From: Kangiella taiwanensis | GTDB lineage: Bacteria > Pseudomonadota > Gammaproteobacteria > Enterobacterales > Kangiellaceae | NCBI RefSeq assembly: GCF_020005165.1 | Contig: NZ_JAHCLT010000001.1 | Coordinates: forward strand, 868,001 to 932,000 | Length of the DNA stretch: 64,000 nucleotides | Direction: 5' to 3' | Shown: positions 13,321 to 61,828 of the stretch, piece by piece | How positions within the stretch are numbered: the stretch's first letter is position 1 | Layout: each line of letters starts with the position of its first letter | Position numbers and translations under genes: made by a program | Notes under the pieces: generated by a model | Databases searched by the model: none | What the model was told of the DNA's origin: nothing | The model's input: the letters and a program-made list of their open reading frames with translations, nothing else

Positions 13321-13348
13321 AAAAAGGTCACTTCATAGTGACCTTTTT
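13321..13348. terminator. Terminator of purEK
   Basis: A perfect 12-bp stem AAAAAGGTCACT / AGTGACCTTTTT has a 4-base loop. The flanking A and T runs make it usable in both directions. Confidence 0.9.
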
Positions 13349-13356
13349 ATTGATAA

Positions 13357-13495: not shown

Positions 13496-13524
13496 AAAAA
13501 AAGCCCACCTTTCGGTGAGCTTTT
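13496..13524 (-). terminator. Terminator of ssrA
   Basis: Read on the minus strand, a GC-rich stem (AAAAGCTCACC / GGTGGGCTTTT with one mismatch) is followed by a run of seven T, just after the tmRNA 3' CCA. Confidence 0.85.
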
Positions 13525-13531
13525 GTTTATT

Positions 13532-13883: not shown

Positions 13884-14024
13884 ATGGAACAACGCATTAT
13901 AACTGATATGGGGATTGTGTATACAGACTTCAATGATTATATTACTAAAAGTAATTTGTGGGTTGGTTAACATTCCTTTGTTAAACAAAAGGTTACACTT
14001 TGTGGGTTATAGGTAGGAGGGTTA

Positions 14025-14816: not shown

Positions 14817-14829
14817 ACGTGAGGTAAGT

Positions 14830-44362: not shown

Positions 44363-44393
44363 TTGAGTGCGATGATAATTTAAGGAGGCACTT

Positions 44394-44582
44394 ATGACGT
44401 ATAACAGGAAAACCAGTAAACGTGTGAGTCAAATCTGTTTGTATATAGCCATTGCAGCAATAGGGTATACCATCGCTGCAAAGCTGAACCGCGTACAACC
44501 AGAGGTGGGTGTTCTCAACAGCTTAGAAACGGTTGAGTCTATCCATAAGGGAATAAAAAATATTTTTGTAACGTTGGATTAA
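44394..44582 (+). CDS. Small single-span membrane protein (62 aa)
   Basis: A strong AAGGAGG lies 7 bases before the ATG. The product has a basic N-terminus (NRKTSKRVSQ) and one membrane helix (ICLYIAIAAIGYTIAAKL). It closes the GntR/ABC operon and its stop is 1 base from the convergent TetR stop. I do not recognise it; a small transporter subunit is possible. Confidence 0.6.
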   Translation: MTYNRKTSKRVSQICLYIAIAAIGYTIAAKLNRVQPEVGVLNSLETVESIHKGIKNIFVTLD

Positions 44583-44583
44583 G

Positions 44584-45186
44584 CTAGTTTCTTACCCAGT
44601 GCATGAGTCCTGACACAGATTCGTCTGCGATGGACTCAAGCTCACTTTCACTAAAATGGACTTTCAGTTTGAGAAGTAGTGGCCAAAGGACGCGTTCTTT
44701 GAGAATACCGAAAAAAATCTCTGCTGCGATGTCAGCTTTCTTCACCACGGTCTCATCGAAGGTAAATTCCGATAATAATTTGGTCAAAGACTGCATAATC
44801 GGAATTTTAACGTACTGTAAGAAGTTAATCGGTACCTGTGGGTGGTGCTCGGCTTCCGATATGATTACTCGAAATAGAGCCACCGTATCAGGCTGAACTA
44901 AAATTCGAACAATTCTCTGAGAGAACTTTCGTAGACGCTCCTCTGGTGAGCCCGACATATGGTCAATATCTGGTATCTTACTGACAACGCGTTTATTGAC
45001 TTCTTCTAATCCTGCAATAAATAAGGACTCTTTATTATCAAAATGATTATAGAGTGTGATCTTTGATACTTTGGCAGCTGATGCGATTTGCTCAATGCTT
45101 GTCTTAGATACGCCTTGCTTCAAAAACATTTTGATAGCGGTATCAAGAATATGTTCTCTTTTCGGTAATTGTTTCTTCTGGGGCAT
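44584..45186 (-). CDS. TetR-family regulator of the fatty-amine-like cluster (200 aa)
   Basis: Residues about 10-60 form the TetR DNA-binding domain (ILDTAIKMFLKQGVSKTSIEQIASAAKVSKITLYNHFDNKESLF). The C-terminal ligand domain resembles the AefR group. It lies downstream of the alpha/beta hydrolase gene in the same direction, and that unit is divergent from the large biosynthetic operon. Two 19-bp near-palindromes in the divergent promoter are good candidate operators, so it likely controls both units in response to a lipid-like ligand (inference). Confidence 0.88.
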   Translation of the reverse strand: MPQKKQLPKREHILDTAIKMFLKQGVSKTSIEQIASAAKVSKITLYNHFDNKESLFIAGLEEVNKRVVSKIPDIDHMSGSPEERLRKFSQRIVRILVQPDTVALFRVIISEAEHHPQVPINFLQYVKIPIMQSLTKLLSEFTFDETVVKKADIAAEIFFGILKERVLWPLLLKLKVHFSESELESIADESVSGLMHWVRN

Positions 45187-45235
45187 ATTATAAGTTCTTT
45201 TTATATGGCTATCGCTGTCAATGCACTAGACGAGC

Positions 45236-46192
45236 TCAGTCTAGCACAGTTTCTAAGGCTTGGGTATCTGACAAAAAATGCACTACAGCGTTGATTACTT
45301 CGGGGTTTGTGAGGATACGTTTGTGTCCCAGCCCCTCGGTTAACTGTAGCTCACTTCCCTCCCAGTTTTCATGAATTAAAACCCCCTCTTCGTAGGGAAC
45401 TTCTTTATCATTTTTATCATGAATTATCATAGCCTTAGCTGAGCTTTTGCGAGCATTCATGTAAGTTGAAAACTCATTCCATATATTTGTATTTTGTGTA
45501 ACAAACCGATGCTCGATATGCTGAGACAGACTTTCTGTGACCCTGTTAGTTAAGCCAAGAATTGCTTGAAACTTATAGACCAGTCCTTTGAAATGAGACG
45601 GTGTACTGATAGTTACAACTTTATCGGTATTGAGACCATTATTGATAGAGTAGGCGGTACAAATAGCCCCAAAAGAGTGGGCGATGACCCCTGCAAACCG
45701 ACCAAACTGGTTTTGCAAATATACTATAACTCGATGAAACTCTAGAATATCTGTGTGCTTCCCTGAAGAGAGGCCGTGTCCAGGCGCATCAAATGAGATA
45801 ACGTTATATCCTGCTTCTAAAAGCTTGAATACAAACTCATGAAACTGGCTTGCACGTCCCTCCCAACCATGAACTAAGAGAACAGTATTATCATAGAGTA
45901 GAGACTCGTTGGAAGTTTGCCATTGATACAGCTTAACCGTTTTGTCATCAGACAATTTGAAAGTGCGGTGCTCTGCCTTCTTGATGATACTGATTTCTGC
46001 AGATGATGGTTTAAACTTCCTAGGTTTAAACCACAAATCACTAGCTATTTTGCCTGCCTTGTTAACAAATAATTTATCACCGAGTTTAAAAAAGAGGTGT
46101 AAGGCCTTCGCTATTGGGTGGCTCGACTGCTTAGTATTTCCCTTAAGTGTAATTGCTTCATCGATATTTGTTTCTACGCTACCCATCGTCAT
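45236..46192 (-). CDS. Alpha/beta hydrolase (318 aa)
   Basis: The fold is clear: LLVHGWEGRASQFHEF (oxyanion region), ISFDAPGHGLSSG and the nucleophile elbow VIAHSFGAIC with Ser. An Asp (in IHDKNDKEVP) and a His (GLGHKRIL) complete the triad. The elbow is AHSFG rather than GHSxG. An esterase or thioesterase role is plausible; the substrate is unknown. The gene is divergent from the large operon. Confidence 0.85.
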   Translation of the reverse strand: MTMGSVETNIDEAITLKGNTKQSSHPIAKALHLFFKLGDKLFVNKAGKIASDLWFKPRKFKPSSAEISIIKKAEHRTFKLSDDKTVKLYQWQTSNESLLYDNTVLLVHGWEGRASQFHEFVFKLLEAGYNVISFDAPGHGLSSGKHTDILEFHRVIVYLQNQFGRFAGVIAHSFGAICTAYSINNGLNTDKVVTISTPSHFKGLVYKFQAILGLTNRVTESLSQHIEHRFVTQNTNIWNEFSTYMNARKSSAKAMIIHDKNDKEVPYEEGVLIHENWEGSELQLTEGLGHKRILTNPEVINAVVHFLSDTQALETVLD

Positions 46193-46223
46193 ATTCCTGT
46201 AACTTTGAATTGCTACATATAGT

Positions 46224-46242
46224 AAACTGTACCGTATAGTTT
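46224..46242. promoter_or_regulatory. Candidate TetR operator, copy 1
   Basis: AAACTGTACCGTATAGTTT is a 19-bp near-perfect palindrome (one mismatched pair around a central C). It is located just upstream of the hydrolase/tetR unit. Confidence 0.65.
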
Positions 46243-46346
46243 TTCAATGTAACTGGTCTTATCTCAGGTGTTTTATTGAAAAATATATTGTTTTTACAGT
46301 TTTTACTGGTGTATATTCTTGCGCAGACAAGGATGCATCTAAATAT

Positions 46347-46365
46347 AAATTGAACCGTATAGTTT
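46347..46365. promoter_or_regulatory. Candidate TetR operator, copy 2
   Basis: AAATTGAACCGTATAGTTT differs from copy 1 at only two positions and shares the block ACCGTATAGTTT. It lies 20 bases before the start of the first biosynthetic gene, close to its GGAGGGGG ribosome site. Confidence 0.65.
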
Positions 46366-46384
46366 TGTAAATATTGGAGGGGGT

Positions 46385-48070
46385 ATGAGTAATCATTCGA
46401 TTATCTCTACAGCATACAAGCACGCTGTTGAAACTAATCCATTGTGGAGGTTTCCGGCGGAATCTAAGCAACTACAGTTGTCTGAGATACTCAAGGATGC
46501 AGAGACAGCCGCAGCATTTTTATTAAGTCGTGGGGTGAAAGCGCAGGATCGAATCGGCTTTGTGATGAGCAATTCATCCCAATATATATCGCTGATGCTA
46601 GCGAGTTGGATGCTAAATGCTGTTGTTGTTCCACTAAGGCCACAGGGTGGCAAGTACATTAAGTATAATGCTTACCTTTCGGGTATTGATGATATCTGTG
46701 ATCTTAAAGTTCTCTTTCATGATCCTGAGATCCCTGAAGAAGCAATGGCTGCTTGGGCTGAAGAAAGCGGCAAGCAGGTTTTTGCTACCACTATTCTGGA
46801 CGGTTTTGAGCATGAGATTGGGAATATTGAAGTAGCAGTGCCGAACAAGGACGATCTGGCTGTACTACAGTTTACATCTGGCAGCACGGGTATGCCAAAA
46901 GGGGTAATAGTCACCCATAAAATGGTGATTGAGCAGCTCGAACAGTTGCATGGTAATCACTTTTACTCGCGGCAAGGAAGGAAGGTCGAAGCATCTGGCT
47001 CGTGGTTACCGTTAAATCATGATATGGGGTTATTCATTGGTTTTTTACTGCCGCTGTTTGATGGCTGTTCAAATATTCTTGTGCCGACTTCGTACTATAT
47101 GCGCAATCCAGCACGCTGGTTCAAGCTGATGTCCGAACATGAAGTGGATTTAAACTTCACCACGAACTCAGTCTTATTTTCGAGTTTAAAAAGTATCAAA
47201 CGTCTGCTCGAAAAAGAAGTTGATCTATCAAAACTGCATATCTACGTGGCTGCTGAAAAAGTGCATCCAAACATTCTGCGAAAAGCTCAAAAATTGTTCA
47301 GTAATTTGGGGATGCCGGCCGAAAGTTTCCATATCGGTTATGGCATGGCGGAAAACGCATTAGGGTGTACGCGAACTCCTCACGGAATTATAAAAACATT
47401 AAACGTTGTTATTGCTAATGAGAAAGTCTCATTAGCTCGAGAAGACGATCAAGACCAAGTTGAGCTTGTTTCTGTTGGTATTCCCAACGTTAATCATGTC
47501 ATTACCATTCGAGGCGAGGACGATGAAATACTTCCTGATTTAACTTTGGGTGAAATCAGTATTGTCAGTGATTGTGTGACACCGGGTTATTACAACAATG
47601 CTGAAGCAACAGAACTATCTGTGGGTGGTGGTCGCCTCAGAACAGGTGACCTTGGCTTTAGTTATGCTGGAGAGTTCTATTTTTACTCTCGTAAAGACGA
47701 CATGTTGATTACTAACGGCCGCAATATCGTTCCAGATGACGTCGAAATTGCGGCTGAAGAAATAGATGGTGTTGGAGTGGGTAGGACGTGCTTGTTAGGT
47801 ATAGAAAGCAAAGAAACAGGTGTCCTAGAAATGACATTATTAGTTGAAGAGAAGCAGAATACGTCAAGTCATGATCTCAAAAAGAAAAAACTTGATATCC
47901 AATCTTACGTATACCAGACATGCGATCTGTTGCTCACGAAAATTGTTTTCTGTGAACGCGGAACCATTGAAAAAACATCAAGTGGCAAAAAACGCCGAAA
48001 GGTAATACGCCAACGTTATATTAACAATGAAACGAATTTAATAGGGACAATAAATGACTGTGCAGCATAA
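46385..48070 (+). CDS. Fatty-acyl-AMP ligase-like adenylating enzyme (561 aa)
   Basis: An ANL-superfamily enzyme. The ATP loop FTSGSTGMPKGVIVTH and SWLPLNHDMGLFIGFLLPLF (the FAAL-type motif) suggest it activates a fatty acid as acyl-AMP and passes it to an ACP rather than to CoA. The C-terminal hinge region GDLGFSYAGEFYFYSRKDDMLITNGRNI and the lysine region TSSGKKRRK are intact. It is the first gene of the operon and overlaps the next by 17 bases. The gene encodes no ACP domain; the carrier protein is separate downstream. TamA of tambjamine synthesis is the functional analogue I have in mind. Confidence 0.85.
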   Translation: MSNHSIISTAYKHAVETNPLWRFPAESKQLQLSEILKDAETAAAFLLSRGVKAQDRIGFVMSNSSQYISLMLASWMLNAVVVPLRPQGGKYIKYNAYLSGIDDICDLKVLFHDPEIPEEAMAAWAEESGKQVFATTILDGFEHEIGNIEVAVPNKDDLAVLQFTSGSTGMPKGVIVTHKMVIEQLEQLHGNHFYSRQGRKVEASGSWLPLNHDMGLFIGFLLPLFDGCSNILVPTSYYMRNPARWFKLMSEHEVDLNFTTNSVLFSSLKSIKRLLEKEVDLSKLHIYVAAEKVHPNILRKAQKLFSNLGMPAESFHIGYGMAENALGCTRTPHGIIKTLNVVIANEKVSLAREDDQDQVELVSVGIPNVNHVITIRGEDDEILPDLTLGEISIVSDCVTPGYYNNAEATELSVGGGRLRTGDLGFSYAGEFYFYSRKDDMLITNGRNIVPDDVEIAAEEIDGVGVGRTCLLGIESKETGVLEMTLLVEEKQNTSSHDLKKKKLDIQSYVYQTCDLLLTKIVFCERGTIEKTSSGKKRRKVIRQRYINNETNLIGTINDCAA

Positions 48071-51041
48071 TTATAATGACTTTTGTAAGCCAAAATTAAA
48101 CAAGCTCTTATCTGCTTTAAAGTTAGATAAGAACTACATCAAAGCTGAAGGAAATTATCTTTTTACGGACGATGGAAAGGAAGTGATCGACTTTGTCGGT
48201 GGCTTTGGGGTTTCTATTCTAGGACATAATCATCCGACGTTGATTAATGAGATGAAGGCTGCGCTAGACAATAGGGTCGCTATTAACAGCCAGTGTTCGG
48301 TAAGAAGTGAGTCGGCTAACTTGGCTCAGTTGCTGAATGAATACATAGATAATGGTCAAAACTATAAGGTTAATTTTAGTAATAGTGGTGCAGAAAGTGT
48401 TGAGGCAGCGATAAAGCATGCCTATAAAGTACACTTCGATAAAGTTCGTCGAGAGTACGAGCGGATTACAAGAATACTCAATGACTTTTACTATAAAGTT
48501 GAGCGCGAAGGGATTGATGTAGAGTTACCTGGTGATGAGAATGATTTAATTGATTTCCGCAACGATCTTGATGAGTACAACCTTAATCAATTTGAGAGCT
48601 TTCAAAAGTCGCCGGTAATAGCAGGGCTCAAAGGAAGTTATCATGGCAAGACATGCTCACCTTTGAAGGTGACATTCAATAAATCTTATCGGGAAGGTTT
48701 TGAAGGCTTATCCTCAATTCAATCTGCATTTGTTGATCATGATAAGCCTGAGCGTTTAAAAGAGCTAGTCAACGAGATGGCGTGTGTCTTCTATTACCCA
48801 GTTTTAGTTGGGGGGAAAGTTGAAATTCACACCCTGAAAATAACTCGTGTCATGGCTTTTATCATGGAAACTTTGCAGGGGGAAGGTGGTATCAAGCCTG
48901 TTCCTGAAGAAACCCTGTCTCAATTGGCCAGTATTCACGATGAATTAAAAATACCTTTTATTATTGATGAGATTCAAACTGGGTGTGGCCGCCTTGGTAG
49001 TATCTATAGTTATCAAAACACGGCTCTGAATGCTATCGCTCCCGAGTATATCACTCTCAGCAAATCTCTTGGTGGGGGGCTGGTTAAAATCGGTGCAACG
49101 CTAATCCGAGGCGATATATACGATCAAGATTTTGGAATTTTGCATACTTCTACTTTTGCTGAAGATGATTTGTCTGCGAGAGTTGCAATTAAAGCTCTAG
49201 AGCTACTAAAAGAAAACGATAGTGAGCTTCTTAAGCGCGTTAATGTGCAAGGAGGAAAGTTGCTATCGAGTCTTGAGACCCTGCAGAAACGTTACCCTGA
49301 GATCATTAAAAATGTACGCGGCAAGGGGTTGATGATAGGTGTTGAACTCACGCCATTACGCTCCCGCTCACCATTCTTTAGGGCGACCGGTAAGCAGGGT
49401 GTTTTATCGATGTTGGTGGCAAGTTATTTGCTTGAGTACCACAACATTCGGCTTTTGGCACCTCTTACAACCATGTTAAAAGGCAATCCGGGAAAAAATC
49501 GGATGTCGATTCTGCGGGTCCAGCCACCAGCAACAATTACCGACGAAGAAATAGATGCATTATTAACAGCGTTCACTGAAGTATTAGATATTATTCAGAG
49601 CAATAATGAGTACTTACTCGTTGCGCATTTGATTGAGCAAAAGCTGTCCCCTGAGCAGCGTCAAACACCTGTTACGATGGAAGTTAAATGGCCGTTTAAT
49701 GAAGAGCAAAGTCATATTGATGCCCGTACAGGTTTTATTGTCCACCCAACCAAAGTACAGCACTTAATTGACTACTTCTTCCCGTCTTTTGAGCGTTACG
49801 AATGGTCTGAAAGTGCAATGAAAGGGTGGTGGAATAACATTGCACGCTTCTTGGAGCCGGTGCATGTGAAGCGTAATTACATTACGTCGAGGGACTTTAT
49901 TTTAGAAAACAACTTAGTTTTTGTACCTTACCTACCCGAGTACCTTGTACAGGAAAAAGAAGCGTATCTTGAGCAGGAAGTTCGCGATAAGGTTCAGGAT
50001 GCAGTCACTATTGCCAAAGAGTTGGGCGATGACAATATCCCAGTATCAATTATCGGGTTAGGTGCTTATAGCTCTATCGTGACTAACAATGGTATTACAG
50101 TAAATGATTACGAGTCTCCTATCACAACAGGCAATGCTTACACGGCAGCTTTAACGCTTCAGGGTATGATGTTTGCTGCAAATAATGTGCAGCCCCCGAT
50201 AGATATTACTCAAGCTGAAGTGTCAGTTGTTGGTGCCGCGGGAAATATTGGTTCAGTCTTGTCGCAAATTCTTGCTTTGCAAGTCGGGCGTTTATGCCTA
50301 GTAGGTAGTGGCAGTTCAACCAGCGAATTACGACTCAAGTACGCACGCAAAACTTGTCTAGCTGAAATCATCAAAGCGATAAAGACAGAATTGAACGCTG
50401 GTGTAACGTTTGAGCATACTCAGTTGGCTGGTGTGGGTAAAAGGGTATACGAGCTGATTTTAAGCTCAGGTGAAAGCCAGCAGTTGAAATTCTTTAACGA
50501 TGTTCAAGAACAAGCAGATATTGATTATTTGAGCAAGCAACTAGATTTAATTCTAACCCAGTATCACTCGGATGAGTACGAACAGCTTTTTTTGATCCGC
50601 GCTGATTTTAGCCAGTTAAAGTCAAGCGATATTGTCGTTGTTGCGACAAACTCACCAGACGACGAATTAATTAAAACCGACATGGTTCGTCCTGGCGCCG
50701 TAGTCTGCTGTGCCTCAGTCCCATCAAACCTTAGTCAGAGCTTCGAGAAAGAGACGAACAAATACCTTGCTTTTGATGGAGGTCTATCTGCATTACCCGA
50801 GCAGTCTGAAATTAAGTTCGTTGGCATGCCCGAAAACGGCCTAGCATATGGCTGTTTGGCTGAAACATTAATTTTAGGATTTGAGGGCCAAAACCACTCT
50901 TTCTGTAAAGGACCGTTAAGCTCTGAGCACGTTTACCAAGTAATGTCTATGGCAGAAGAACATGGCTTTGAGCTGGGTAACTTGAAATTGAATAACAATG
51001 TACTTCTTACTACCAAAGACAGTACAACCGTGAACGCATAA
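48054..51041 (+). CDS. Fusion of class III aminotransferase and acyl-ACP reductase (995 aa)
   Basis: Residues about 20-515 are a class III PLP aminotransferase: FSNSGAESVEAAIKHAY, PLP-binding FIIDEIQTGCGRLG and the Schiff-base Lys337 in LSKSLGGGLVKIG. A charged insert of about 60 residues lies near 140-200. Residues about 640-990 resemble cyanobacterial acyl-ACP reductase: IIGLGAYSSIVTNNG, ITTGNAYTAALTL, the NADPH loop SVVGAAGNIGSVLSQ (about 722-736), ATNSPDDELI, and GCLAETLILGFEG with Cys934 at the place of the acyl-thioester Cys. The combined logic is acyl-ACP to aldehyde to fatty amine in one protein. The bifunctional TamH reductase/transaminase of tambjamine synthesis has the same logic. 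Confidence 0.85.
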   Translation: MTVQHNYNDFCKPKLNKLLSALKLDKNYIKAEGNYLFTDDGKEVIDFVGGFGVSILGHNHPTLINEMKAALDNRVAINSQCSVRSESANLAQLLNEYIDNGQNYKVNFSNSGAESVEAAIKHAYKVHFDKVRREYERITRILNDFYYKVEREGIDVELPGDENDLIDFRNDLDEYNLNQFESFQKSPVIAGLKGSYHGKTCSPLKVTFNKSYREGFEGLSSIQSAFVDHDKPERLKELVNEMACVFYYPVLVGGKVEIHTLKITRVMAFIMETLQGEGGIKPVPEETLSQLASIHDELKIPFIIDEIQTGCGRLGSIYSYQNTALNAIAPEYITLSKSLGGGLVKIGATLIRGDIYDQDFGILHTSTFAEDDLSARVAIKALELLKENDSELLKRVNVQGGKLLSSLETLQKRYPEIIKNVRGKGLMIGVELTPLRSRSPFFRATGKQGVLSMLVASYLLEYHNIRLLAPLTTMLKGNPGKNRMSILRVQPPATITDEEIDALLTAFTEVLDIIQSNNEYLLVAHLIEQKLSPEQRQTPVTMEVKWPFNEEQSHIDARTGFIVHPTKVQHLIDYFFPSFERYEWSESAMKGWWNNIARFLEPVHVKRNYITSRDFILENNLVFVPYLPEYLVQEKEAYLEQEVRDKVQDAVTIAKELGDDNIPVSIIGLGAYSSIVTNNGITVNDYESPITTGNAYTAALTLQGMMFAANNVQPPIDITQAEVSVVGAAGNIGSVLSQILALQVGRLCLVGSGSSTSELRLKYARKTCLAEIIKAIKTELNAGVTFEHTQLAGVGKRVYELILSSGESQQLKFFNDVQEQADIDYLSKQLDLILTQYHSDEYEQLFLIRADFSQLKSSDIVVVATNSPDDELIKTDMVRPGAVVCCASVPSNLSQSFEKETNKYLAFDGGLSALPEQSEIKFVGMPENGLAYGCLAETLILGFEGQNHSFCKGPLSSEHVYQVMSMAEEHGFELGNLKLNNNVLLTTKDSTTVNA

Positions 51042-51051
51042 GGACATAACG

Positions 51052-52899
51052 ATGTTTCAGTTTAGTACATTTAAGAAAAAAGATACGTCATTCAAGGTTT
51101 ATAACTCGATTAGTAGTGTCGCTGATATTTTTGATGAGCAAATGCTGTCATACAGCAAGTCCGTTGCCATACGTTATGACAATGGATCAACCTATGAGTA
51201 CATGAACTTTGAGCAGTATCGCAAGAATATTAAAGCCATGATTCAGTTTTTTGTGACGGAAAACTGTGAGCAGCAGGTGATCGCCACTTTGTGTAAAAAC
51301 AGACCGGAGTGGGATATGACCTCAATGGCAACGTTTTACACCGGCAATGTCATTTTTCCACTGGACACCAAAACCAATGACACTGAGTTAAAGCACTTAT
51401 TAACTCTGAATCCACCGAAGTATATGTTAACGCCACGTGCACAGCTAGAGCGTGTTAGAGGGCTTATTGAAGAGCTAGAACTAGAGACCACTATCCTTCT
51501 GGCAGATAGCTATGAAGTGTTCGAAGATATCGGCTTTGAAGTGCCTGAGTTACGTGAAGGGGAGCTGTCTACTCAGTCCATTATTGAGGCGTGCGATGAT
51601 AATGTCATGGTTGTGTCGAGCCCATTACTAAAAAAAGATGACACAATTTTGGGAAACTATCCAACTTCTGGTACGACAAGTTTACCTAAAATCGTTCAGA
51701 TCACTCACGGTAATATTGTCGCCGAGGTTAATGAAGCCGTAGATGTTATCAACCTACGTTCTAATGAAGAAGTTCTCAATATCGGGCCTTATACCCACAT
51801 CGCAACATTGGTTGAGTTTTTAATGACTAAGACTCGAGGCTTTTCGGTGACTTATTTTACCAGAGAGCCTGATGAAGATGATGTTCTTGAAGATGAAATT
51901 AAAAAGCTTAAGAAGCTTGGGATAAGAATTAAGGCGTTAATGGCTGTGCCAAAGTTTTGGATCTACGTGCTTAAAGAGTTGCTGGAGGAAATGAAAGGGA
52001 AGCCAGTCCTTCGAAATCTTTACAACTACCTGATTAGCATCGAGAAGAACGCAAACTTACATGATATAGGTACTCTAGATAAAACGAAGTTGACTGCTAT
52101 GAGGACCTTGCTACGCAATAAGCTCGGTGGATACTTTAGTTATGGTGTGTCTTCTTCAATGAAGCTGGATGGCGCCTTGGTCGAGATCTTCGGTAAGCTT
52201 GGAATTACCGTAATTGATATCTACGGTGCAACAGAAGCCTGCGGAATCATTGCCAGAAATAAACTCAACGATGTAAAGCCAGGTTCCTGCGGCAGAATTA
52301 TCAAACCATTGCAGCACCGGCTCGCCAATATGGTGGAGATTCCGGGTATTGATCAGGAAGTGGGTGAGCTACAAATTAAGGGAGATACCATCATGCACTC
52401 CTATCTAGGTATGGATAAAAGTGCCCATCTTGATAGTGACGGCTTTTATAGTACTGGTGACTTATGTTGGTTGGATAGTGAAGGGTATCTTTACATAGTG
52501 GGCAGACAAAAAGAGCTGACCAAGTGGGATGATGGTAGTTACATTGATCCTCAACATTTATCGAATATTATGGTGCGAAGTATCTTCATCAAAGATGCTT
52601 TAGTAACGCGTCTCAAGCCTGAAGATGATTTCTTAAGTGTTTATGTCTACCCCGATTACAAGCGTCTTAATAAAGATAAAGAGTATCAGGAAGATCTTAA
52701 GGCTGGTTTGTCGCCAAAAGAAGCATTAAGAAAAAGAATTGAGGAAGCGATTGATTATGCTCAATCTATAGTGAATATCACTCCAGAGTTAAGTAAGAAA
52801 ACCATCTACTTACTGCCCAAGTCATTAGAGCGCACACCTACGCACAAAATTAAGTTTTTGTTTGAGTTGGAGCGCTTGCATTTAGCTGAAGAGATTTAA
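51052..52899 (+). CDS. Second adenylate-forming enzyme, long-chain acyl-CoA synthetase-like (615 aa)
   Basis: Another ANL enzyme, of the long-chain acyl-CoA synthetase type. IYGATEACG, YSTGDLCWLDSEGYLYIVGRQKELTKW and the C-terminal Lys in TPTHKIKF are present. The ATP loop reads YPTSGTTSLPKIVQITH, where two Gly of the usual SGTTGxPKGV are Ser and Ile, so activity or specificity may be altered. It lies just before the ACP gene (10 bases), so it may load that ACP. Its relation to the first ligase of the operon is open: different chain, different acceptor, or a different step. Confidence 0.82.
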   Translation: MFQFSTFKKKDTSFKVYNSISSVADIFDEQMLSYSKSVAIRYDNGSTYEYMNFEQYRKNIKAMIQFFVTENCEQQVIATLCKNRPEWDMTSMATFYTGNVIFPLDTKTNDTELKHLLTLNPPKYMLTPRAQLERVRGLIEELELETTILLADSYEVFEDIGFEVPELREGELSTQSIIEACDDNVMVVSSPLLKKDDTILGNYPTSGTTSLPKIVQITHGNIVAEVNEAVDVINLRSNEEVLNIGPYTHIATLVEFLMTKTRGFSVTYFTREPDEDDVLEDEIKKLKKLGIRIKALMAVPKFWIYVLKELLEEMKGKPVLRNLYNYLISIEKNANLHDIGTLDKTKLTAMRTLLRNKLGGYFSYGVSSSMKLDGALVEIFGKLGITVIDIYGATEACGIIARNKLNDVKPGSCGRIIKPLQHRLANMVEIPGIDQEVGELQIKGDTIMHSYLGMDKSAHLDSDGFYSTGDLCWLDSEGYLYIVGRQKELTKWDDGSYIDPQHLSNIMVRSIFIKDALVTRLKPEDDFLSVYVYPDYKRLNKDKEYQEDLKAGLSPKEALRKRIEEAIDYAQSIVNITPELSKKTIYLLPKSLERTPTHKIKFLFELERLHLAEEI

Positions 52900-52909
52900 G
52901 GAGTCACGG

Positions 52910-53179
52910 ATGACATTCTTATATAAGCTGATTTCACTCTGCCAAGAGTATGAAATTATCCCTGCAAATAATATCGAACATCAATTGGATGCTGATTTAC
53001 TAGAGAGCGGCATCATTGATTCGATGGGTGTAGTGATGTTTCAGGAACTTCTGAGTGAGAAGTTCGGTATGGATGTGCCAACGGAAAAGTTCATTATTGA
53101 ATTAAGAACCTTAAGGGCTATTGCTGGGTATGTACAGCTTCAGTTAACAGAGGAAGAGTTGGAGTTGGCCTGTGCTTAA
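52910..53179 (+). CDS. Stand-alone acyl carrier protein (89 aa)
   Basis: A small acidic helical protein with the phosphopantetheine motif LLESGIIDSMGVVMFQELL; Ser38 in DSM is the expected attachment site. It should carry the acyl chain between the adenylating enzymes and the reductase domain. The sequence differs from the usual housekeeping AcpP motif (DSL). It overlaps the next gene by 8 bases. Confidence 0.87.
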   Translation: MTFLYKLISLCQEYEIIPANNIEHQLDADLLESGIIDSMGVVMFQELLSEKFGMDVPTEKFIIELRTLRAIAGYVQLQLTEEELELACA

Positions 53180-54242
53180 ACATCTATTCCAACGTAAATC
53201 TAGGGAAACTCTGAGTTGTGAGATTCTAAACTCAGGGTTTGCATTCGACTTACAAGACAAAGCTACCATTCTTCAGTCAGCAATGAATGCTGGAGTGACT
53301 ATGGCACATAACTGCCAGGTGGGATCTTGTAAAGAATGTTGCTGCAAACTTATTGAAGGGGATATTAAATCTCACGTAGAGCTAGATTACCTTTTTGACA
53401 AGGAAGAGATCGAGGCTGGTTACTTTTTACCGTGCCAATCAGTTGCGAAAACAAGTGTTGTGATTGAGTCCTTGAAGGACTTTAGCGATACCGATGGGTA
53501 CGCGACCGTTTCGGTTGAATCGATTAGAAGCTTAACTCCAAAGATAAAGCGCTTGACGGTAAGGTCGCAAAAACCGATTTACCCAAAGCCAGGTCAATAT
53601 TGCAATCTAATGTTGCCCGAAAGTGGAGAGTACCGATCATATTCTTTTTCAGAGCAGGATGATATCGAAATGCTCTATAGTTTTGATATTACTCATCATG
53701 CAGCTGGCCGTGTTTCTGCACACTTGTTGTCACAAGCCGCTATTGGAAGCGAGATTAAAGTTAGCAAGCCCCACGGATGCTTCTCCCTCAGTAATGCAAA
53801 GGGACCTGTATTGTGTATTGTGGCTGGCAGTGGTCAGGGAGCTGTGATGAACATTCTTAGAAGCTCAAAAGAAACGCTGAAACATCGCCCTGTCTTTTTT
53901 ATGTGCAGCACTAAAACAATGAGTGGACAGTACTCCAAAAGTGATATCGATGAGTTGAATCAATTGAGTGATTGTCATTACATTCCGTTTCTAACCCAAG
54001 CCCAACCTAACGACATTCAAACACAGAGTGGCTATACGAGGATCGGGAGAATTCCTCTCCAACTGAAGCAGGAGCTGAGCAAGCTACTTGAGCAGTGTTC
54101 ATTGAGCAGTGATTTCGAGGATTGGAGTGTTTTGCTATGTGGAGCACCGGGCTTAATCGATGACTCTCTGACTGTGTTAGATGATATGGGCTTTAGAAAA
54201 AATCATATTGCTTTTGATAAGTACGAATTGTCTGGAGGCTGA
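53172..54242 (+). CDS. [2Fe-2S] ferredoxin/FAD/NAD reductase, XylA-like (356 aa)
   Basis: An electron-transfer chain in one protein. Residues about 15-100 are a plant-type [2Fe-2S] domain (CQVGSCKEC, with the fourth Cys in FLPCQS). The FAD domain carries RSYSFSEQ, and the NAD domain has VLCIVAGSGQGAV and a C-terminal LLCGAPGLIDD. This is the layout of XylA and related reductases that feed membrane or soluble oxygenases. The start is GTG, overlapping the ACP gene. The likely partner is the AlkB/XylM-type protein 2.4 kb downstream. Confidence 0.88.
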   Translation: MLKHLFQRKSRETLSCEILNSGFAFDLQDKATILQSAMNAGVTMAHNCQVGSCKECCCKLIEGDIKSHVELDYLFDKEEIEAGYFLPCQSVAKTSVVIESLKDFSDTDGYATVSVESIRSLTPKIKRLTVRSQKPIYPKPGQYCNLMLPESGEYRSYSFSEQDDIEMLYSFDITHHAAGRVSAHLLSQAAIGSEIKVSKPHGCFSLSNAKGPVLCIVAGSGQGAVMNILRSSKETLKHRPVFFMCSTKTMSGQYSKSDIDELNQLSDCHYIPFLTQAQPNDIQTQSGYTRIGRIPLQLKQELSKLLEQCSLSSDFEDWSVLLCGAPGLIDDSLTVLDDMGFRKNHIAFDKYELSGG

Positions 54243-54294
54243 AAAGGTAGCGATAAAGCAGGCTGTCTAATCAGATAAGAATTAGGATTATATT

Positions 54295-56643
54295 ATGTTT
54301 ATAAAGTTTATTGAGCGGATTTCTCTACAGTATTCATGGCTTGTTTTAGTTGCCGCACTATTGATCAGTTTTGCTTTTGGTGCTGGCGTTAAAAACTTTA
54401 CTTTTAGTAACGATTATCGTGACTTTTTTAGTGAAGAAAACCCACAGTTAGTAGAATGGGAAGAGCTACAAAAAGTCTATTCAAAGACGGACAATGTTTT
54501 GTTTGCGGTGACCTTTGAGGAGGGGACTGTATTTTCTGCTGGTAGGTTACAAGTCATTCATGAGCTTACACAAGCTTCGTGGGAAATTCCTTATGCTACT
54601 CGTGTAGATTCAATTACCAACTTCCAAGATATCAAGGCACAAGGTGATGACTTATTGGTTGATGACCTTGTTGAGTCAACGGCCGCTCTTAACGAAGAGC
54701 AATTAACTTACATTCAGCGGGTGGCAACAGAGCATCCGTTGCTGGTCAACCGGTTAATTAATCCAAAAGGTACAACCGCAGCGGTTAATGTCACCACATT
54801 GTTGTCTGAAAAGCCCCGCGCACAAGTTCAGGAAATTGGTGAGTATGTTTATCAGATGGCAGACGACTTTAGAGCCAAATACCCAGGCGTGAAAATCCAT
54901 ATCTCCGGCGCAGTACCTTATAACTATGCTTTAACTGATGCCTCTAAGCAGGACCTCAAATCTGTCATGCCTTTGATGTATTTGGCCGCATTGGTGTTAT
55001 TAGGGGGTTTACTGAAAACCATTGGTGGTGTGTTTGCAACATGGCTCATGATCATAATTTCGTTGATTGCGAGCATGGGGGCTGCAGGCTGGGCTGGTAT
55101 TGTTCTTATGGCACCTTCTTTGAGTGCGCCGACCATTATTATGACTATGGTGGTGGCTAACTGTGTCCATCTTCTGGTGACTTTTTATCAAAAGTTTAGA
55201 CCTGGCGTTGATAAAAAGTCAGCGATCATAGAAACGTACAAAATTAATATTTCACCAGTGATTGTCACTAATGTAACAACGGCCATTGGCTTTTTAACCA
55301 TGAACTTTAGTGATGTACCACCTTACCGTGATTTGGGGAATATGGTGGCTGGAGGTTTAATATTTGTGGTTTTATTTAGCTTGTTTGTACTACCAGCGAT
55401 CATGAATATCTTCCCTCTGAAGCCGAAGAAAGTGGCGGCTCAAAATCGAGAAGGTATTTATGCAAGATTGGCTGACTTTATCGTTACCAGATATAAAGTT
55501 GTAATGACCGCTTTTGTATTTTTAGCAACATTCTTGGCGTTAGGAGTTAGCAAACTAGAGTTTAACGATAAGTTTGTCGAATGGTTGGATGACCGTTATG
55601 AGTTCCGACAAGATAGTGATTTTATCAATGAAAACCTAACCGGCTTGTATCGTTTGGATTGGTCTCTTGAGTCGGGTGAAAGTAACGGTATTGCGTCACC
55701 TGAATACCTACAGGTTTTGGAGAAATTTACCGCTTGGGCGAGAAGTCAGGAAGGCGTTGTTCATGTTCATAGCATGATTGATATTTTTAAAGAAATGAAT
55801 ATGAAGATGCATGGCGGCGACCAAGAGTATTATAGAGTCCCTGAATCAAAAGAGCTGGCCTCACAATTACTCTTAGTTTATGAGCTTTCATTACCCAAAG
55901 GATTAGACTTGACTAATACAGTCAATATTTCTAAATCAGCGACCAAATTCGTGATCCGCACCAGTAATATGGATTCACAAGAATTGTTGTCACTAGAGCA
56001 CCGAGCCAAAGAATGGTTAACAGAGAATGCTCCTGAAAGCATGGTCAGCGAAGCAGCGAGTACCAGTATTCTTTTCGCCAATATTTCTAAAAGAAACATC
56101 CAAGCATTGCTTGGCGGGACTCTGATTGCTTTGGCTTTGATTTCAATTCTTCTGATTGCGCCATTACGCAGCGTTAAGTTTGGTGTGATGAGCTTAATAC
56201 CGAACTTATTACCTGCGCTATTAGGTTTTGGTATTTGGGGGCTACTTGTGGGGCAGGTTGGTTTGGCCATTTCGATTGTTGTAGGTATGACCCTAGGCAT
56301 TGTTGTCGATGATACGGTTCACTTTTTGAGTAAGTATTTGCATTATCGACGAGAGCGAGGGATGAACACCGCTGCGGCCGTAAAAGAAACCATTATCACA
56401 GTAGGGCCTGCTTTATTCGGTACAACAGTGATCTTGGCTACTGGGTTTACCATGCTGGCGACCTCTGGTTTCGAAATTAACTCACAAATGGGAGCTCTAA
56501 CAGCGATCACCATTGTTATAGCATTTGTTGGCGATTTCTTCTTATTACCGTGCTTGATGATGATATTTGATCGTTCGGCAAAGAAAGTCAGTGATGAGCA
56601 GACAGTGGTGGAAGCAAAACCTTTGACAGAGACAGGAAACTAA
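54295..56643 (+). CDS. RND-superfamily (MMPL-type) lipid exporter (782 aa)
   Basis: The protein has two halves of six membrane helices each, with two large periplasmic loops, in the RND/MMPL layout. The N-terminal loop motif FSNDYRDFFSEENPQL and the helix-4 region MTLGIVVDDTVHF with paired Asp are typical of the predicted exporter group of the family. HpnN and MmpL relatives move lipids such as hopanoids. It sits within the biosynthetic operon, after the reductase and before the hydroxylase, so export of the lipid product is the natural role. Confidence 0.87.
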   Translation: MFIKFIERISLQYSWLVLVAALLISFAFGAGVKNFTFSNDYRDFFSEENPQLVEWEELQKVYSKTDNVLFAVTFEEGTVFSAGRLQVIHELTQASWEIPYATRVDSITNFQDIKAQGDDLLVDDLVESTAALNEEQLTYIQRVATEHPLLVNRLINPKGTTAAVNVTTLLSEKPRAQVQEIGEYVYQMADDFRAKYPGVKIHISGAVPYNYALTDASKQDLKSVMPLMYLAALVLLGGLLKTIGGVFATWLMIIISLIASMGAAGWAGIVLMAPSLSAPTIIMTMVVANCVHLLVTFYQKFRPGVDKKSAIIETYKINISPVIVTNVTTAIGFLTMNFSDVPPYRDLGNMVAGGLIFVVLFSLFVLPAIMNIFPLKPKKVAAQNREGIYARLADFIVTRYKVVMTAFVFLATFLALGVSKLEFNDKFVEWLDDRYEFRQDSDFINENLTGLYRLDWSLESGESNGIASPEYLQVLEKFTAWARSQEGVVHVHSMIDIFKEMNMKMHGGDQEYYRVPESKELASQLLLVYELSLPKGLDLTNTVNISKSATKFVIRTSNMDSQELLSLEHRAKEWLTENAPESMVSEAASTSILFANISKRNIQALLGGTLIALALISILLIAPLRSVKFGVMSLIPNLLPALLGFGIWGLLVGQVGLAISIVVGMTLGIVVDDTVHFLSKYLHYRRERGMNTAAAVKETIITVGPALFGTTVILATGFTMLATSGFEINSQMGALTAITIVIAFVGDFFLLPCLMMIFDRSAKKVSDEQTVVEAKPLTETGN

Positions 56644-56654
56644 CGGATTAAGCC

Positions 56655-57842
56655 ATGAATGATTATTTGAAATACAGTTATTTACTACTGGTGTTTATAC
56701 CATTAACGGCTGTTTGTGTATTAGCTGGAGGCTGGTGGAGTTTGATTGCACCAAATGTGGTAATTCTGTTCCACCTAATTTATGACAATGTGTCATCGCC
56801 AGACTTACAGACGCGCCCAATAAAGCATAAAGGGATACTGAACTTTATGTTGTATATGCATCTCCCTGCATCCTTGGTTTTAGTCTTTGTACTAGTCTGG
56901 CAAGCTGCCCCTGGTGACTTTCTTGGTTTCGGTGCTTGGCTATCAGGACTAACGTCGTTTGATTTATTGCAAGCTCACAATGAGATGAGCTTAAGTCAGT
57001 TACTGTCTGCAGCGTTCGCTGTGGGCTTTATTCTAAGTACCAATACATTGGTCGGGCATGAACTGGTACATCGTACTAGCCATAAGTTCTCCATGTTTGT
57101 TGGACGCTGGTTACTTGCGATTGTTGGTGATGCCCAGTTTTCGATTTCGCATGTTTACGCACATCATTTGAATGTCGCTACTTACGAAGATGCAGCAACT
57201 GCTCGCCGTGGTGAATCGCTTTATGCGTTCTTTTTTCGCTCAAGTATTGGGCAATATCAAGAGTCTTGTGAGATTGAGAAGCGTCGCTTGACCAATAAAG
57301 GCGTCTCTTTCTGGTCCTTTAGAAACCGGGTGTTAACGGGGGTTGCAATGACGGTAGTGATTGCAGCTTGTACTACCTTGATTGCTGGATGGCTGGGGCT
57401 TTTAGCTTATGGGGTGTTATTGCTCACGTCAAAGTTCTTATTTGAAACTGTTAACTATATTGAGCATTACGGATTGCTTAGAGAAAAAGGCTCCAAAGTA
57501 GAGCCTAAACATAGTTGGGACTGCAATACTCGAGCAGCGTCTTACGTATTGTATAACTTAAGTCGTCACTCAGATCATCATGCAAGTGCAACAACGCCTT
57601 TTTGGGAGCTAAAAGCGCACCCGAATGTGATGGAACTGAAGTATGGGTACATCGCGCACATGATTTTAGCGATGATTCCTCCTTTGTGGCATCAGTATAC
57701 GGCACCCAAACTGGCTTACTGGGATCAAAACCTAGCGACAGACGCTGAGCTCGAATTAGCCAAGCAGTCTAACCAAAGTAGTGGTAAGCATATTTTCAAT
57801 CAAGCAGCTTCAGCACAACTTGCTGAAGAAAATAAATACTAA
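56655..57842 (+). CDS. AlkB/XylM-type membrane di-iron monooxygenase (395 aa)
   Basis: An integral-membrane alkane 1-monooxygenase family protein. The His boxes are HELVHRTSH (from residue 135), HVYAHHLNVATYED (from residue 166) and LSRHSDHHAS near residue 305, with NYIEHYGLLRE near 270, all as in AlkB. RRGESLYAFFFRSSIGQ matches the AlkB phrase after box 2. It should hydroxylate an aliphatic chain, most likely its terminal carbon, using electrons from the XylA-like reductase gene product. Fatty acid, aldehyde or amine could be the substrate. Confidence 0.88.
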   Translation: MNDYLKYSYLLLVFIPLTAVCVLAGGWWSLIAPNVVILFHLIYDNVSSPDLQTRPIKHKGILNFMLYMHLPASLVLVFVLVWQAAPGDFLGFGAWLSGLTSFDLLQAHNEMSLSQLLSAAFAVGFILSTNTLVGHELVHRTSHKFSMFVGRWLLAIVGDAQFSISHVYAHHLNVATYEDAATARRGESLYAFFFRSSIGQYQESCEIEKRRLTNKGVSFWSFRNRVLTGVAMTVVIAACTTLIAGWLGLLAYGVLLLTSKFLFETVNYIEHYGLLREKGSKVEPKHSWDCNTRAASYVLYNLSRHSDHHASATTPFWELKAHPNVMELKYGYIAHMILAMIPPLWHQYTAPKLAYWDQNLATDAELELAKQSNQSSGKHIFNQAASAQLAEENKY

Positions 57843-57859
57843 ATCTAACAGGAGTTGTT

Positions 57860-58645
57860 ATGAGACTGATAAGAGCAATAGCTACGTTGACGTTAGCCAT
57901 CAGCGCGGGGGCACTAGTAGCAGAAACGGACAAAAGTAAAGGTTTAGAAATTATGACCGAGGTTGATCTGCGTGATGAGGGGTTTGACGATTTTTCAGCG
58001 AAAATCTCGATGGTATTAGAAGATAATAATGGAAATAAAAGCACGCGTTTAATGGAAGTGAAGAATTTAGAGGTTAAGAATGATGGTGATAAGCGGTTAC
58101 TAGTGTTTAAGGAGCCTAGTGATGTATCTGGAACAGCACTACTCACTTACTCACATATTCTTGAAGATGATGAGCAGTGGCTATTCTTACCTGCTTTGAA
58201 GCGTGTTAAACGAATTTCATCTAGCAACAAGTCAGGGCCTTTCGTAGGCAGTGAGTTTGCTTATGAGGATATGTTATCACAAGAAGTTGAGAAGTATGAG
58301 CATGTGTTTATCGGTGAGGATACGTTCAATGGACTTGAGTGTTATGTAGTAGAACGTAAGCCACGCTATGAAAGCTCTGGCTATAATAAGCAAAAGGTCT
58401 GGATCGACAAAGAGCATTTCCGTTACCAAAAAATAGAATACTTTGACCATCAGGATTCGCATCTTAAAACACTTGTTCTTAGTGAATATGAACAGTTCCT
58501 AGATAAGTTTTGGCGAGCAAAAGAAATGGTGATGACAAATCATCAGACGCAAAAAAGCACCGCCATGTACTGGAAGGAGTTTTCTTTTAGAAACGGTTAT
58601 GACGACAGTTCTTTTACCAAGAGTGTCTTGAAGCGAAGTCGCTAA
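57860..58645 (+). CDS. LolA-like outer-membrane lipoprotein-sorting protein (261 aa)
   Basis: A periplasmic protein with a signal peptide (about residues 1-20) and the LolA-like fold phrases IMTEVDLRDEGFDDF, WLFLPALKRVKRISSSNKSGPFVGSEFAYEDM and YNKQKVWIDKEHFRYQKIEYFD. This group is often encoded beside MMPL-type exporters and may carry lipid across the periplasm. The gene follows the hydroxylase gene by 17 bases. Confidence 0.87.
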   Translation: MRLIRAIATLTLAISAGALVAETDKSKGLEIMTEVDLRDEGFDDFSAKISMVLEDNNGNKSTRLMEVKNLEVKNDGDKRLLVFKEPSDVSGTALLTYSHILEDDEQWLFLPALKRVKRISSSNKSGPFVGSEFAYEDMLSQEVEKYEHVFIGEDTFNGLECYVVERKPRYESSGYNKQKVWIDKEHFRYQKIEYFDHQDSHLKTLVLSEYEQFLDKFWRAKEMVMTNHQTQKSTAMYWKEFSFRNGYDDSSFTKSVLKRSR

Positions 58646-58668
58646 GCGACATTGATAGGGAACCTATT

Positions 58669-59637
58669 GTGGAGTTATACAGTAAAATTAAAGGAGTGGG
58701 GAGTTATGTTCCAGCGCATGTGGTGTCAAACCATATGTTAGAGCAGACCCTGGATACAAGCCACGAGTGGATTGTTTCTCGTACTGGAATTGAGGAAAGG
58801 CGGATTTCTTCTGATACAGAGTCATCGTCTTATATGGCAATTGAAGCAGCAAGAAAGGCCATCGATGCTGCTGGAGTAAGCCTTGACGAAATTGACATGG
58901 TGGTGGTCGGAACCACCACATCTACCTATGTTATGCCGAGCACGGCATGCGAGGTCGCTGCGGGCTTAGGTATTGCGGGAGCAACAGCTTTTGATGTGGC
59001 TGCTGCCTGCTCAGGCTTTATTTACGCGGTGAGCGTTGCCGATAAGTTTATTCGAACTGCTGAGGCTCGATGCGTGTTAACCATTGGCGTAGATCGCTAC
59101 TCAAGATTATGCAACCCCGAAGATCGCAATACCAGCATCTTGTTTGGTGATGGTGCTGGCGCCGCTATTATTAAGCTCAGTGATACCCCTGGAATTGAGT
59201 ACACTGAACTCGGCTCTGATGGCGGTAGGAGCAATATTTTAACCGCAAAACATCAGGAGCGCCTTCCTTATACAACAGATGGAGATAATGCATACTTACA
59301 GATGCAGGGACAGGATGTCTTTAAAACCGCTGTGAGCAAATTTGTCGATCTTATTGAAAGTGTTCAAACCAAAAAAGGTGTTCACCTCGATGATATCGAC
59401 ATGCTGATTCCACACCAAGCTAATATTCGTATTATCAATTCGGTGGCAAAAAGGTATAAGTTGCCCCAAGCTAAGGTGTTTCTTAATGTCCAAAAGTATG
59501 GGAACACTTCAGCAGCTTCAGTTGTATTAGCACTAGATGAAGCCATGCAAAGCGGCCAAATAAAAGAGGGAAGTCGGGTGCTTATGTTGGCTTTTGGGGG
59601 CGGTTTAACATGGGGTAGTATTCTAGCTACATTTTAA
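58669..59637 (+). CDS. Beta-ketoacyl-ACP synthase III-like enzyme (322 aa)
   Basis: A FabH-fold thiolase enzyme with the full triad Cys114 (AAACSGF), His249 (IPHQANIRI) and Asn279 (GNTSAAS). The start is GTG 58669. In a secondary cluster it could start a dedicated acyl chain or condense or acylate an intermediate (as in the acyltransferring KAS III relatives). It is the last gene of the biosynthetic operon. A housekeeping fabH role is unlikely here as no other fab genes flank it. Confidence 0.9.
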   Translation: MELYSKIKGVGSYVPAHVVSNHMLEQTLDTSHEWIVSRTGIEERRISSDTESSSYMAIEAARKAIDAAGVSLDEIDMVVVGTTTSTYVMPSTACEVAAGLGIAGATAFDVAAACSGFIYAVSVADKFIRTAEARCVLTIGVDRYSRLCNPEDRNTSILFGDGAGAAIIKLSDTPGIEYTELGSDGGRSNILTAKHQERLPYTTDGDNAYLQMQGQDVFKTAVSKFVDLIESVQTKKGVHLDDIDMLIPHQANIRIINSVAKRYKLPQAKVFLNVQKYGNTSAASVVLALDEAMQSGQIKEGSRVLMLAFGGGLTWGSILATF

Positions 59638-59906
59638 GGAAGCCCCCAGCTTTAATAACAAGGCGTTGTTTACCTGGGATAATATTCAGCGACGATTAAT
59701 ACTCCCCTGTTACCCTAAAACCGAGATGATTTTGTATCAAAATTATTGAGTTTAGACGTCTAAATCCTTCTCACCGTTATATTTCTTGCTTAAAAGTGGA
59801 AATTATTGATAGTATGCAAATTAACAAGTGGTATGACGTCTTATGGAAAACCGCTTCCGAATAACGAAATAAACAGTTAATTCCTGTCGATGGGGGAAGG
59901 AATTGT
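59638..59906 (+). promoter_or_regulatory. Promoter region of the DUF1302 unit with TTTAGACGTCTAAA palindrome
   Basis: A perfect 14-bp palindrome TTTAGACGTCTAAA lies at 59751-59764, and a second GACGTC core at 59835-59840 (TATGACGTCTTA). These are candidate operator sites for a regulator other than the TetR above, since its 19-bp site is absent here. The start of the next gene is preceded by GGGGGAAGGAA. Confidence 0.45.
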
Positions 59907-61808: not shown

Positions 61809-61828
61809 TAAAAGGGTATTAACAGTTT

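Follow-up and report, generated by a model that had tools for sequence, protein, structure and literature searches.

The 2.56-Mb genome of Kangiella taiwanensis (G000) carries a 15,160-bp island that, in our assessment, is likely to make a long-chain primary amine, which would be exported either free or after further modification as an envelope lipid. The island occupies positions 44583..59742 of the 64-kb stretch of DNA analyzed here (C1:868001-932000, hereafter the window), and it consists of eleven genes, i.e., a nine-gene operon together with a divergent TetR-family regulator gene and an alpha/beta-hydrolase gene. The conversion of a fatty acid to an amine by TamA and TamH is known from the tambjamine tail. 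The island encodes a TamH-like fusion of a transaminase and an acyl-acyl carrier protein (ACP) reductase, whose clade stands apart from the tambjamine enzymes and is tied to a dedicated MMPL exporter and a second adenylating enzyme (ANL2), in a genome that yielded no tambjamine condensing enzyme. The new findings are the island, the module formed by the fusion, ANL2, and MMPL together with its spread, and the AlkB and KAS III that are specific to the genus.

A TamH-like fusion in a nine-gene operon

Nine open reading frames (ORFs) follow one another on the + strand at 46385-59637, with intergenic distances of -17, 10, 10, -8, 52, 11, 17, and 23 bases. The initial annotation had described nine codirectional, tightly spaced genes, and these coordinates (gaps and overlaps of -17 to +52 bases) agree with that description; the divergent regulator and hydrolase genes of the same block had been overlooked. 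Its protein assignments also held, since Pfam and NCBIfam are consistent with the functions given to all nine products, with no NCBIfam match for AlkB and LolA among the operon proteins scanned and with the NCBIfam matches lying under the curated cut-offs, except two for KAS III. A second member of the genus, G009, retains all nine genes in the same order, with protein identities of 58-90%. As this order is kept with saturated synonymous sites and low nonsynonymous divergence (dN), the operon represents more than a chance arrangement.

The second gene (48054..51041, + strand) encodes the fusion, in which a class III transaminase (residues ~1-515) precedes the acyl-ACP reductase (~540-995). The N-terminal half matches class III transaminases (Aminotran_3), with CrmG as the best match and PigE as the next. 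The C-terminal half has no Pfam match; its profile matches the long-chain cyanobacterial acyl-ACP reductase 6jzq (PDB; E 2.9e-20) and also the N-terminal reductase of PigE. A Foldseek search with the model of the fusion (mean pLDDT 75.2) gave CrmG as the best match, in agreement with the sequence. No reductase fold was seen among the best 50 matches listed, all of which have the transaminase fold, and the reductase assignment therefore rests on the sequence profile. PigE of the prodigiosin pathway likewise is a transaminase/reductase fusion but with the domains in reversed order, the reductase profile matching PigE 201-335 and the transaminase matching 576-742.

The domain order of the fusion is that of PtTamH from Pseudoalteromonas tunicata, in which K340, G707-G713, and C887 (PMC9594044) are the equivalents of K337, G727-G733, and C934 here. 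The pyridoxal phosphate lysine (K337) is kept in 21/21 aligned relatives; among the 20 that bear a reductase, GxxG and the catalytic cysteine (C934) are present in every one and the full GxxGxxG in 16. In vitro, TamA and TamH together turn C12 acid, NADH, and glutamate into C12 amine, and PtTamH gave no product from C12-CoA in the assays reported there (PMC9594044). The same source mentions distant TamH homologs of like organization in Chitinimonas, Paucibacter, and Streptomyces, for which its authors left a tambjamine role open (PMC9594044).

The first gene (46385..48070, + strand) encodes a fatty-acyl-AMP ligase (FAAL; Pfam, NCBIfam), the counterpart of the TamA adenylation domain, and the fourth (52910..53179, + strand) an ACP with a PP-binding match and a DSM phosphopantetheine site (S38). 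TamA holds a FAAL-like domain and an ACP in one chain and loads the ACP domain in trans (PMC5939613). As the operon FAAL aligns with a 695-aa TamA-like FAAL-ACP protein (L129, in genome G628), FAAL and ACP look like TamA divided into two genes, and the ACP is presumably the carrier partner of FAAL. The likeness to the TamA-TamH cascade (tambjamine YP1, P. tunicata) thus covers FAAL, ACP, and a fusion with an N-terminal transaminase, a C-terminal reductase, and the same catalytic residues, whereas the island differs in having separate FAAL and ACP genes, in the addition of ANL2, MMPL, and LolA, and in its separate fusion clade.

Because the PtTamH domain order and catalytic residues are kept and FAAL plus ACP resemble a split TamA, the core fatty-amine step is well supported, and the fusion is predicted with good support to act as a TamH-like transaminase/acyl-ACP reductase. 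These features also back the route given in the initial annotation, from fatty acid through acyl-AMP, acyl-ACP, and aldehyde to 1-aminoalkane. More specifically, homology to tested enzymes supports a scheme in which FAAL would convert a fatty acid to acyl-AMP and transfer the chain to the ACP, after which the fusion would take the acyl chain onto the cysteine of its reductase half, release an aldehyde, and, with its transaminase half, turn this aldehyde into a 1-aminoalkane.

The third gene (51052..52899, + strand) encodes ANL2, an ACSL-type (long-chain acyl-CoA-synthetase-like) adenylating enzyme by Pfam and NCBIfam and the best conserved partner of the fusion, which carries P-loop, TGD, and C-terminal lysine motifs. 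Its best NCBIfam match is a long-chain acyl-CoA ligase (133 bits vs 57.5 for carboxylic acid reductase [CAR]). Both ANL2 and the ACP have weak CAR matches in NCBIfam. In a fold search, the top matches to the ANL2 model include CAR A domains, a weak hint owing to the poor model (mean pLDDT 62.5). Identity of ANL2 is 64-69% among Gammaproteobacteria outside the genus, where FAAL reaches 42-47%, and 52-56% to loci L023 and L024. By sequence comparison, ANL2 is conserved more strongly than either FAAL or the fusion, which calls for an explanation of its own; it had been given no role in the initial annotation.

Distribution of the fusion clade and its partner genes

Scanning of genome contigs with a three-row fusion alignment gave at least 80 loci, of which at least 12 span almost the full length of the fusion, and a scan with the single fusion protein as query gave no match. 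Identity is 40-59% for nine of the 12 near-full-length loci listed and 30-31% for the other three, which are planctomycete; one of the 12 (L028) was left out because the ORF caller gave no match. The close clade as counted below consists of 12 listed loci, including those of G000, G009, and G265, with L110 (G256) and L019 being the same and counted once. Its gene contents were read from ORFs and tblastn, with Pfam for ten proteins.

ANL2 stands intact directly downstream of the fusion in 9/12 listed clade loci. The exceptions are L025, where only the first 209 residues match, L027, whose contig ends 31 bp after the fusion, and L026 (Bacteroidota), which is without ANL2. MMPL occurs in 10/12 (none was seen in L026 or in the cut contig L022). 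Its gene lies downstream of the fusion in Gammaproteobacteria and immediately precedes it in Gemmatimonadota and Polyangia. Two of the matches are partial, with L024 matching part of the protein (E 2.4e-10) and L027 matching in two pieces (E 2.4e-7 and 5.1e-15). LolA_like is found in seven of the loci, i.e., in all 7 gammaproteobacterial ones, that of L021 having been missed by the ORF caller and found by tblastn. FAAL is also found in 7/12, and the L022 contig starts at the fusion. Gene gaps in the short or cut loci (L022, 5.9 kb; L024, 10 kb; L027, ending after the fusion) do not prove absence. The order FAAL-fusion-ANL2-ACP-LolA-MMPL is whole in four loci (L019, L020, L021, and L111) and is followed in L022 as far as the contig reaches; in G000 and G009, the ACP gene is followed by reductase-MMPL-AlkB-LolA-KAS III. 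Conservation of the genes together in other genomes, the check proposed in the initial annotation, was thus run, and the gene set recurs elsewhere. Collectively, these comparisons suggest that the fusion-ANL2-MMPL module spans Gammaproteobacteria, Gemmatimonadota, and Polyangia.

An ORF comparison of 20 fusion loci (two being halves of one G009 region, with G000 itself left out) found FAAL in 9, ANL2 in 8, ACP in 6, MMPL in 11, and LolA in 8. At E 1e-8, each of these five was found in 0/68 control aminotransferase loci, which come from the same scan but from other taxa and average 14 kb vs 19 kb for the fusion loci. The [2Fe-2S]/FAD reductase (FdR) had a match in two of the control loci, and the fusion was matched via ordinary transaminases in 51.

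The fusion clade is rare. Beyond G000 and G009, 394 genomes of the order contained no clade fusion, the only matches being G052 and five weaker relatives, and 398 genomes of the phylum gave G000 and one weaker relative. ANL2 orthologs (E <=1e-70) were present in 3/369 class genomes, the same 3 with the clade fusion, and in none of four other class genomes with weaker reductase matches, as judged from at most three candidates per genome, so that some could be missed.

In a tree of fusions (G586, which is without a reductase, was left out), the clade plus L026 is separate from tambjamine-type, nonribosomal-peptide-synthetase-like, and other fusions with a support of 99; the clade without L026 has a support of 48. 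The comparison cluster of G628 looks like a tambjamine cluster, with a 941-aa fusion (the length of PtTamH) and a protein taken by eye for a phosphoenolpyruvate (PEP)-synthase-like condensing enzyme. A genome-wide query of G000 with the TamQ-like condensing enzyme (L130, G628) matched just one 798-aa ORF, and this in part only (32% and 39%); we take the ORF for PEP synthase. Bipyrrole (MBC) genes were absent from the 18 proteins scanned at 40053-63202, the genome-wide search being for the TamQ-like enzyme only. The earlier statement that no pyrrole (bipyrrole) genes lie nearby stands within this range. In the open-licence literature, we found no paper on a cluster of this kind outside tambjamine and prodiginine work.

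Three operon genes are confined to a narrower range. The seventh (56655..57842, + strand) encodes an AlkB-type membrane hydroxylase (Pfam FA_desaturase) that matches solved alkane 1-monooxygenases (E 6.2e-42) and contains HELVH, HVYAHH, EHYG, and RHSDHH, which we take to be the AlkB-family histidine motifs. The fifth (53172..54242, + strand) encodes a BenC-like [2Fe-2S]/FAD/NAD reductase with Fer2 and FAD matches, a probable electron donor to AlkB; at 58% identity in G009, it is the least conserved of the eleven island proteins. The ninth (58669..59637, + strand) encodes a FabH-type KAS III (Pfam, NCBIfam) with Cys-His-Asn motifs. As the genome encodes another KAS III on contig C3 (46% identity), this second copy suggests a special starter chain. 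Given that AlkB, the reductase, and KAS III were seen in 2/12 listed clade loci, both from the genus (G000 and G009), they seem to represent tailoring specific to this lineage rather than parts of a general pathway. Histidine motifs and a Fer2-FAD-NAD reductase in the same operon are shared with AlkB alkane hydroxylases, from which the island enzyme differs by sitting inside a biosynthetic operon. AlkB, fed by the reductase, would oxidize a chain, probably at its far end; the pair, which was found in no other genus, probably serves as an omega-hydroxylase acting on one chain, and the dedicated KAS III would supply a particular starter chain.

Export, candidate products, and competing explanations

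The sixth gene (54295..56643, + strand) encodes the MMPL exporter of the RND type (Pfam; best NCBIfam match HAE3, under its cut-off), and the eighth (57860..58645, + strand) a LolA-like lipid carrier (PF17131 by Pfam) that is presumably periplasmic. The MMPL pump would extract the product from the inner membrane and pass it to the LolA-like protein, which would carry it across the periplasm toward the outer membrane. In aryl polyene clusters, delivery of the product to the outer membrane has been proposed as the role of an RND transporter and LolA-like proteins (PMC8253772), and because of this parallel the product here is probably an envelope lipid. These clusters resemble the island in an acyl-activating enzyme with ACP(s), an RND transporter, and a LolA-like chaperone; they differ in that the island lacks the ketosynthase/ketoreductase/dehydratase polyene set (it has one KAS III only) and the DUF3261 LolB-like protein, and in that their product is a polyene acid, the predicted one here being an amine.

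Our preferred, unproven idea for ANL2 is that it would activate a second carboxylic acid, which would be joined to the amine as an amide, and the coexistence of FAAL and ANL2 in Gammaproteobacteria favors such a second-acid role. On this basis, we tentatively suggest, at somewhat less than even odds, a new class of fatty-amine envelope lipids (in its boldest form, N-acyl alkylamines) made via the conserved fusion-ANL2-MMPL module in at least three lineages, with LolA added in Gammaproteobacteria. The export route, the hydroxylation, the roles of KAS III and ANL2, and the regulation are parts of the scheme that we infer.

Several observations weigh against an exported fatty amine as product. 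Identity between the fusion and its tambjamine-type counterpart in L127 is only ~31%. Among the eleven island proteins, none was recognized as an acyltransferase or a headgroup enzyme, and the genes therefore do not reveal the final product. AlkB may have a different substrate, and the direction and substrate of transport are deduced from protein families alone. In four Gemmatimonadota and Polyangia genomes searched, FAAL had no good match (best E 3.8e-9); a fifth, the Bacteroidota genome, has one at E 1.7e-39. As fusions in the former two lineages come with ANL2 and/or MMPL but without FAAL, loading by FAAL does not appear to be universal. In L026 of the Bacteroidota, FAAL and ACP are present, and ANL2, MMPL, and LolA were not seen.

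The strongest competing explanation, which we regard as possible at somewhat less than even odds, assigns ANL2 the part of a second acyl supplier, resembling a CAR A domain, that loads the ACP or makes acyl-CoA, with a free alkylamine as product. It is favored by L023 and L024 (and by L025 with its ANL2 fragment), where fusion and ANL2 occur with no FAAL adjoining or well matched in the genome, as well as by the weak CAR matches of ANL2 and ACP and the CAR A domains among the best folds of the ANL2 model. The occurrence of ANL2 without FAAL would indeed argue for an alternative loader, unless the fusion in those genomes uses acyl-ACP from fatty acid synthesis; cyanobacterial acyl-ACP reductases draw acyl-ACP from that ordinary source. 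However, FAAL and ACP should suffice in Gammaproteobacteria, yet ANL2 is kept there and is the better conserved enzyme. Moreover, its score is far higher for acyl-CoA ligase than for CAR, the model behind the fold matches is poor, and PtTamH did not use C12-CoA in the reported assays (PMC9594044).

It is unlikely, in our view, that the amine acts as a diffusible signal or in defense and not as a membrane lipid, with MMPL serving as an efflux and self-protection pump. Fatty amines are membrane active, and the operon's own TetR regulator and its patchy presence (2/20 genus genomes) would suit such a function, but the LolA-like carrier in 7/7 gammaproteobacterial clade loci points to periplasmic transfer to the outer membrane.

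A hydrocarbon-use island, in which AlkB, the reductase, the acyl-activating enzymes, and MMPL, LolA, DUF1302, and DUF1329 proteins take up and oxidize alkanes or similar compounds and the fusion is incidental, is improbable. In Thalassolituus, growth on n-C28 alkane induces a protein that combines MMPL and LolA-like domains (PMC6304351), and AmeABCD, which resembles the genes downstream of the island, was proposed as a monoterpene exporter (PMC6394551). Against this, ACP, FAAL, acyl-ACP reductase, and KAS III indicate synthesis, the eleven island proteins include no alcohol or aldehyde dehydrogenase, 10/12 listed clade loci showed neither AlkB nor reductase, and the DUF1302-DUF1329-MMPL neighbors occur without the island in six inspected relatives, with DUF1302 in 19/20 genus genomes. 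On these grounds, we rejected a pure alkane-use island.

That the amine is the precursor of a tambjamine- or prodiginine-like pigment whose remaining genes lie elsewhere in the genome is very improbable. In its favor, TamA and TamH are the nearest relatives with biochemical evidence. It was rejected because the genome-wide search, made with the TamQ-like enzyme only and with the window annotated at 40053-63202, gave just partial matches, and because the clade is separate from the tambjamine-type fusion.

As a concrete candidate source of natural long-chain amine lipids, the island provides a compact operon suited to studying how a single- or two-chain amine lipid is made and moved.

MMPL and LolA-like genes also lie beside three more distant fusions (L017, L125, and L126). 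The L126 locus (6136-14890, - strand) has a fusion with 27% identity, an MMPL with 39%, and a LolA with 51%; the latter two are nearer to those of the window than are their counterparts at gammaproteobacterial clade loci outside the genus, and the export pair may be exchanged between clusters. At L017 (4383-18439, - strand) and L125 (4194-16943, + strand), TamH-like fusions are accompanied by LolA-like, MMPL, and, by eye, ketosynthase-like and short-chain-dehydrogenase-like proteins, perhaps so that chains are built de novo and then aminated and exported. At L113 (9033-18071, - strand), the TamH-like fusion is the C-terminal part of a 3012-aa protein in which adenylating-domain matches precede it, and a 41% identical MMPL is nearby. 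At L112 (3759-11917, - strand), a TamH-like fusion is followed by 879- and 877-aa proteins that are by eye PEP-synthase-like (PigC/TamQ-like), perhaps another amine-condensing cluster.

Insertion site and neighboring genes

The island was delimited by alignment with G006, in which 151 bp stand in its place. The fusion gene was found in 2/20 genus genomes (G000 and G009); among the 18 others, completeness is 55% for G001 and 86% for G002. The insertion site was inspected in six of these 18 (G004, G006, G008, G013, G016, and G019) and is empty in all six, where an ABC-transporter gene runs straight into DUF1302-DUF1329-MMPL genes. Empty and occupied sites in close relatives offer a natural with/without comparison for lipidomics. 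G+C content is 41.7% at 44363-59900, and 43.8% and 44.5% in the window flanks.

G009 has all eleven island genes at the identical site. Between G000 and G009, protein identity is 58-90% for island genes and 68-90% for the flanks, with saturation at synonymous sites. Nine of the eleven island genes have a dN of 0.07-0.14, the outliers being the hydrolase (0.27) and the reductase (0.36). Flank-like identities, saturated synonymous sites, and low dN indicate that these lineages have long carried the block and that purifying selection acts on it. In a flank-protein tree of eight genomes, G000 groups with the island-free G006 and G004 (support 0.999), apart from G009, and G000 with G006 alone has a support of 0.738. 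This grouping calls for either repeated loss or movement to the same site between species; the island may thus have been inherited from a common ancestor and then lost in G006, G004, and G008, or may have moved between species, with the similar island and flank identities favoring loss.

At the left end of the island, the - strand carries the TetR-family regulator gene (44584..45186), identified by domain scan with TetR_C_7 (an AefR-like C-terminal domain) and 89% identical in G009, and the alpha/beta-hydrolase gene (45236..46192) in the same direction, also identified by domain scan and fast evolving (63% identical in G009). The TetR gene was not found at the site in any of the six inspected island-free relatives. 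Between the hydrolase gene and the operon lies a divergent control region of 192 bp (46193..46384) with two TetR-operator-like sites, AACTGTACCGTATAGTT at 46225-46241 and TTGAACCGTATAGTTTT at 46350-46366, each conserved in G009. The two share the 12-mer CCGTATAGTTTT, of which the window holds no other copy on either strand. Through these two elements of the divergent promoter, the TetR protein would repress the operon.

Directly downstream of the island is a DUF1302-DUF1329-YCF48-MMPL cassette (59907-63205; L002:5270-8909). Its DUF1302 and DUF1329 genes (domain scan; AmeAB-like; 59907..63205, + strand) are a neighbor found in the genus outside the island and possibly used by it. We rejected the cassette as a part of the island because it is present without the island in the six inspected relatives. 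YCF48 stands between DUF1329 and MMPL in five of those six sites, the G004 copy not being reported by the ORF caller. AmeABCD of Castellaniella (DUF1302, DUF1329, COG4447, and HAE3), the proposed exporter of apolar monoterpenes (PMC6394551), has the same composition and order as this cassette, which is a neighbor of the island only. At the other edge, a 62-codon ORF with a hydrophobic stretch (44394-44582) ends exactly where the island begins and is also present in the island-free G006.

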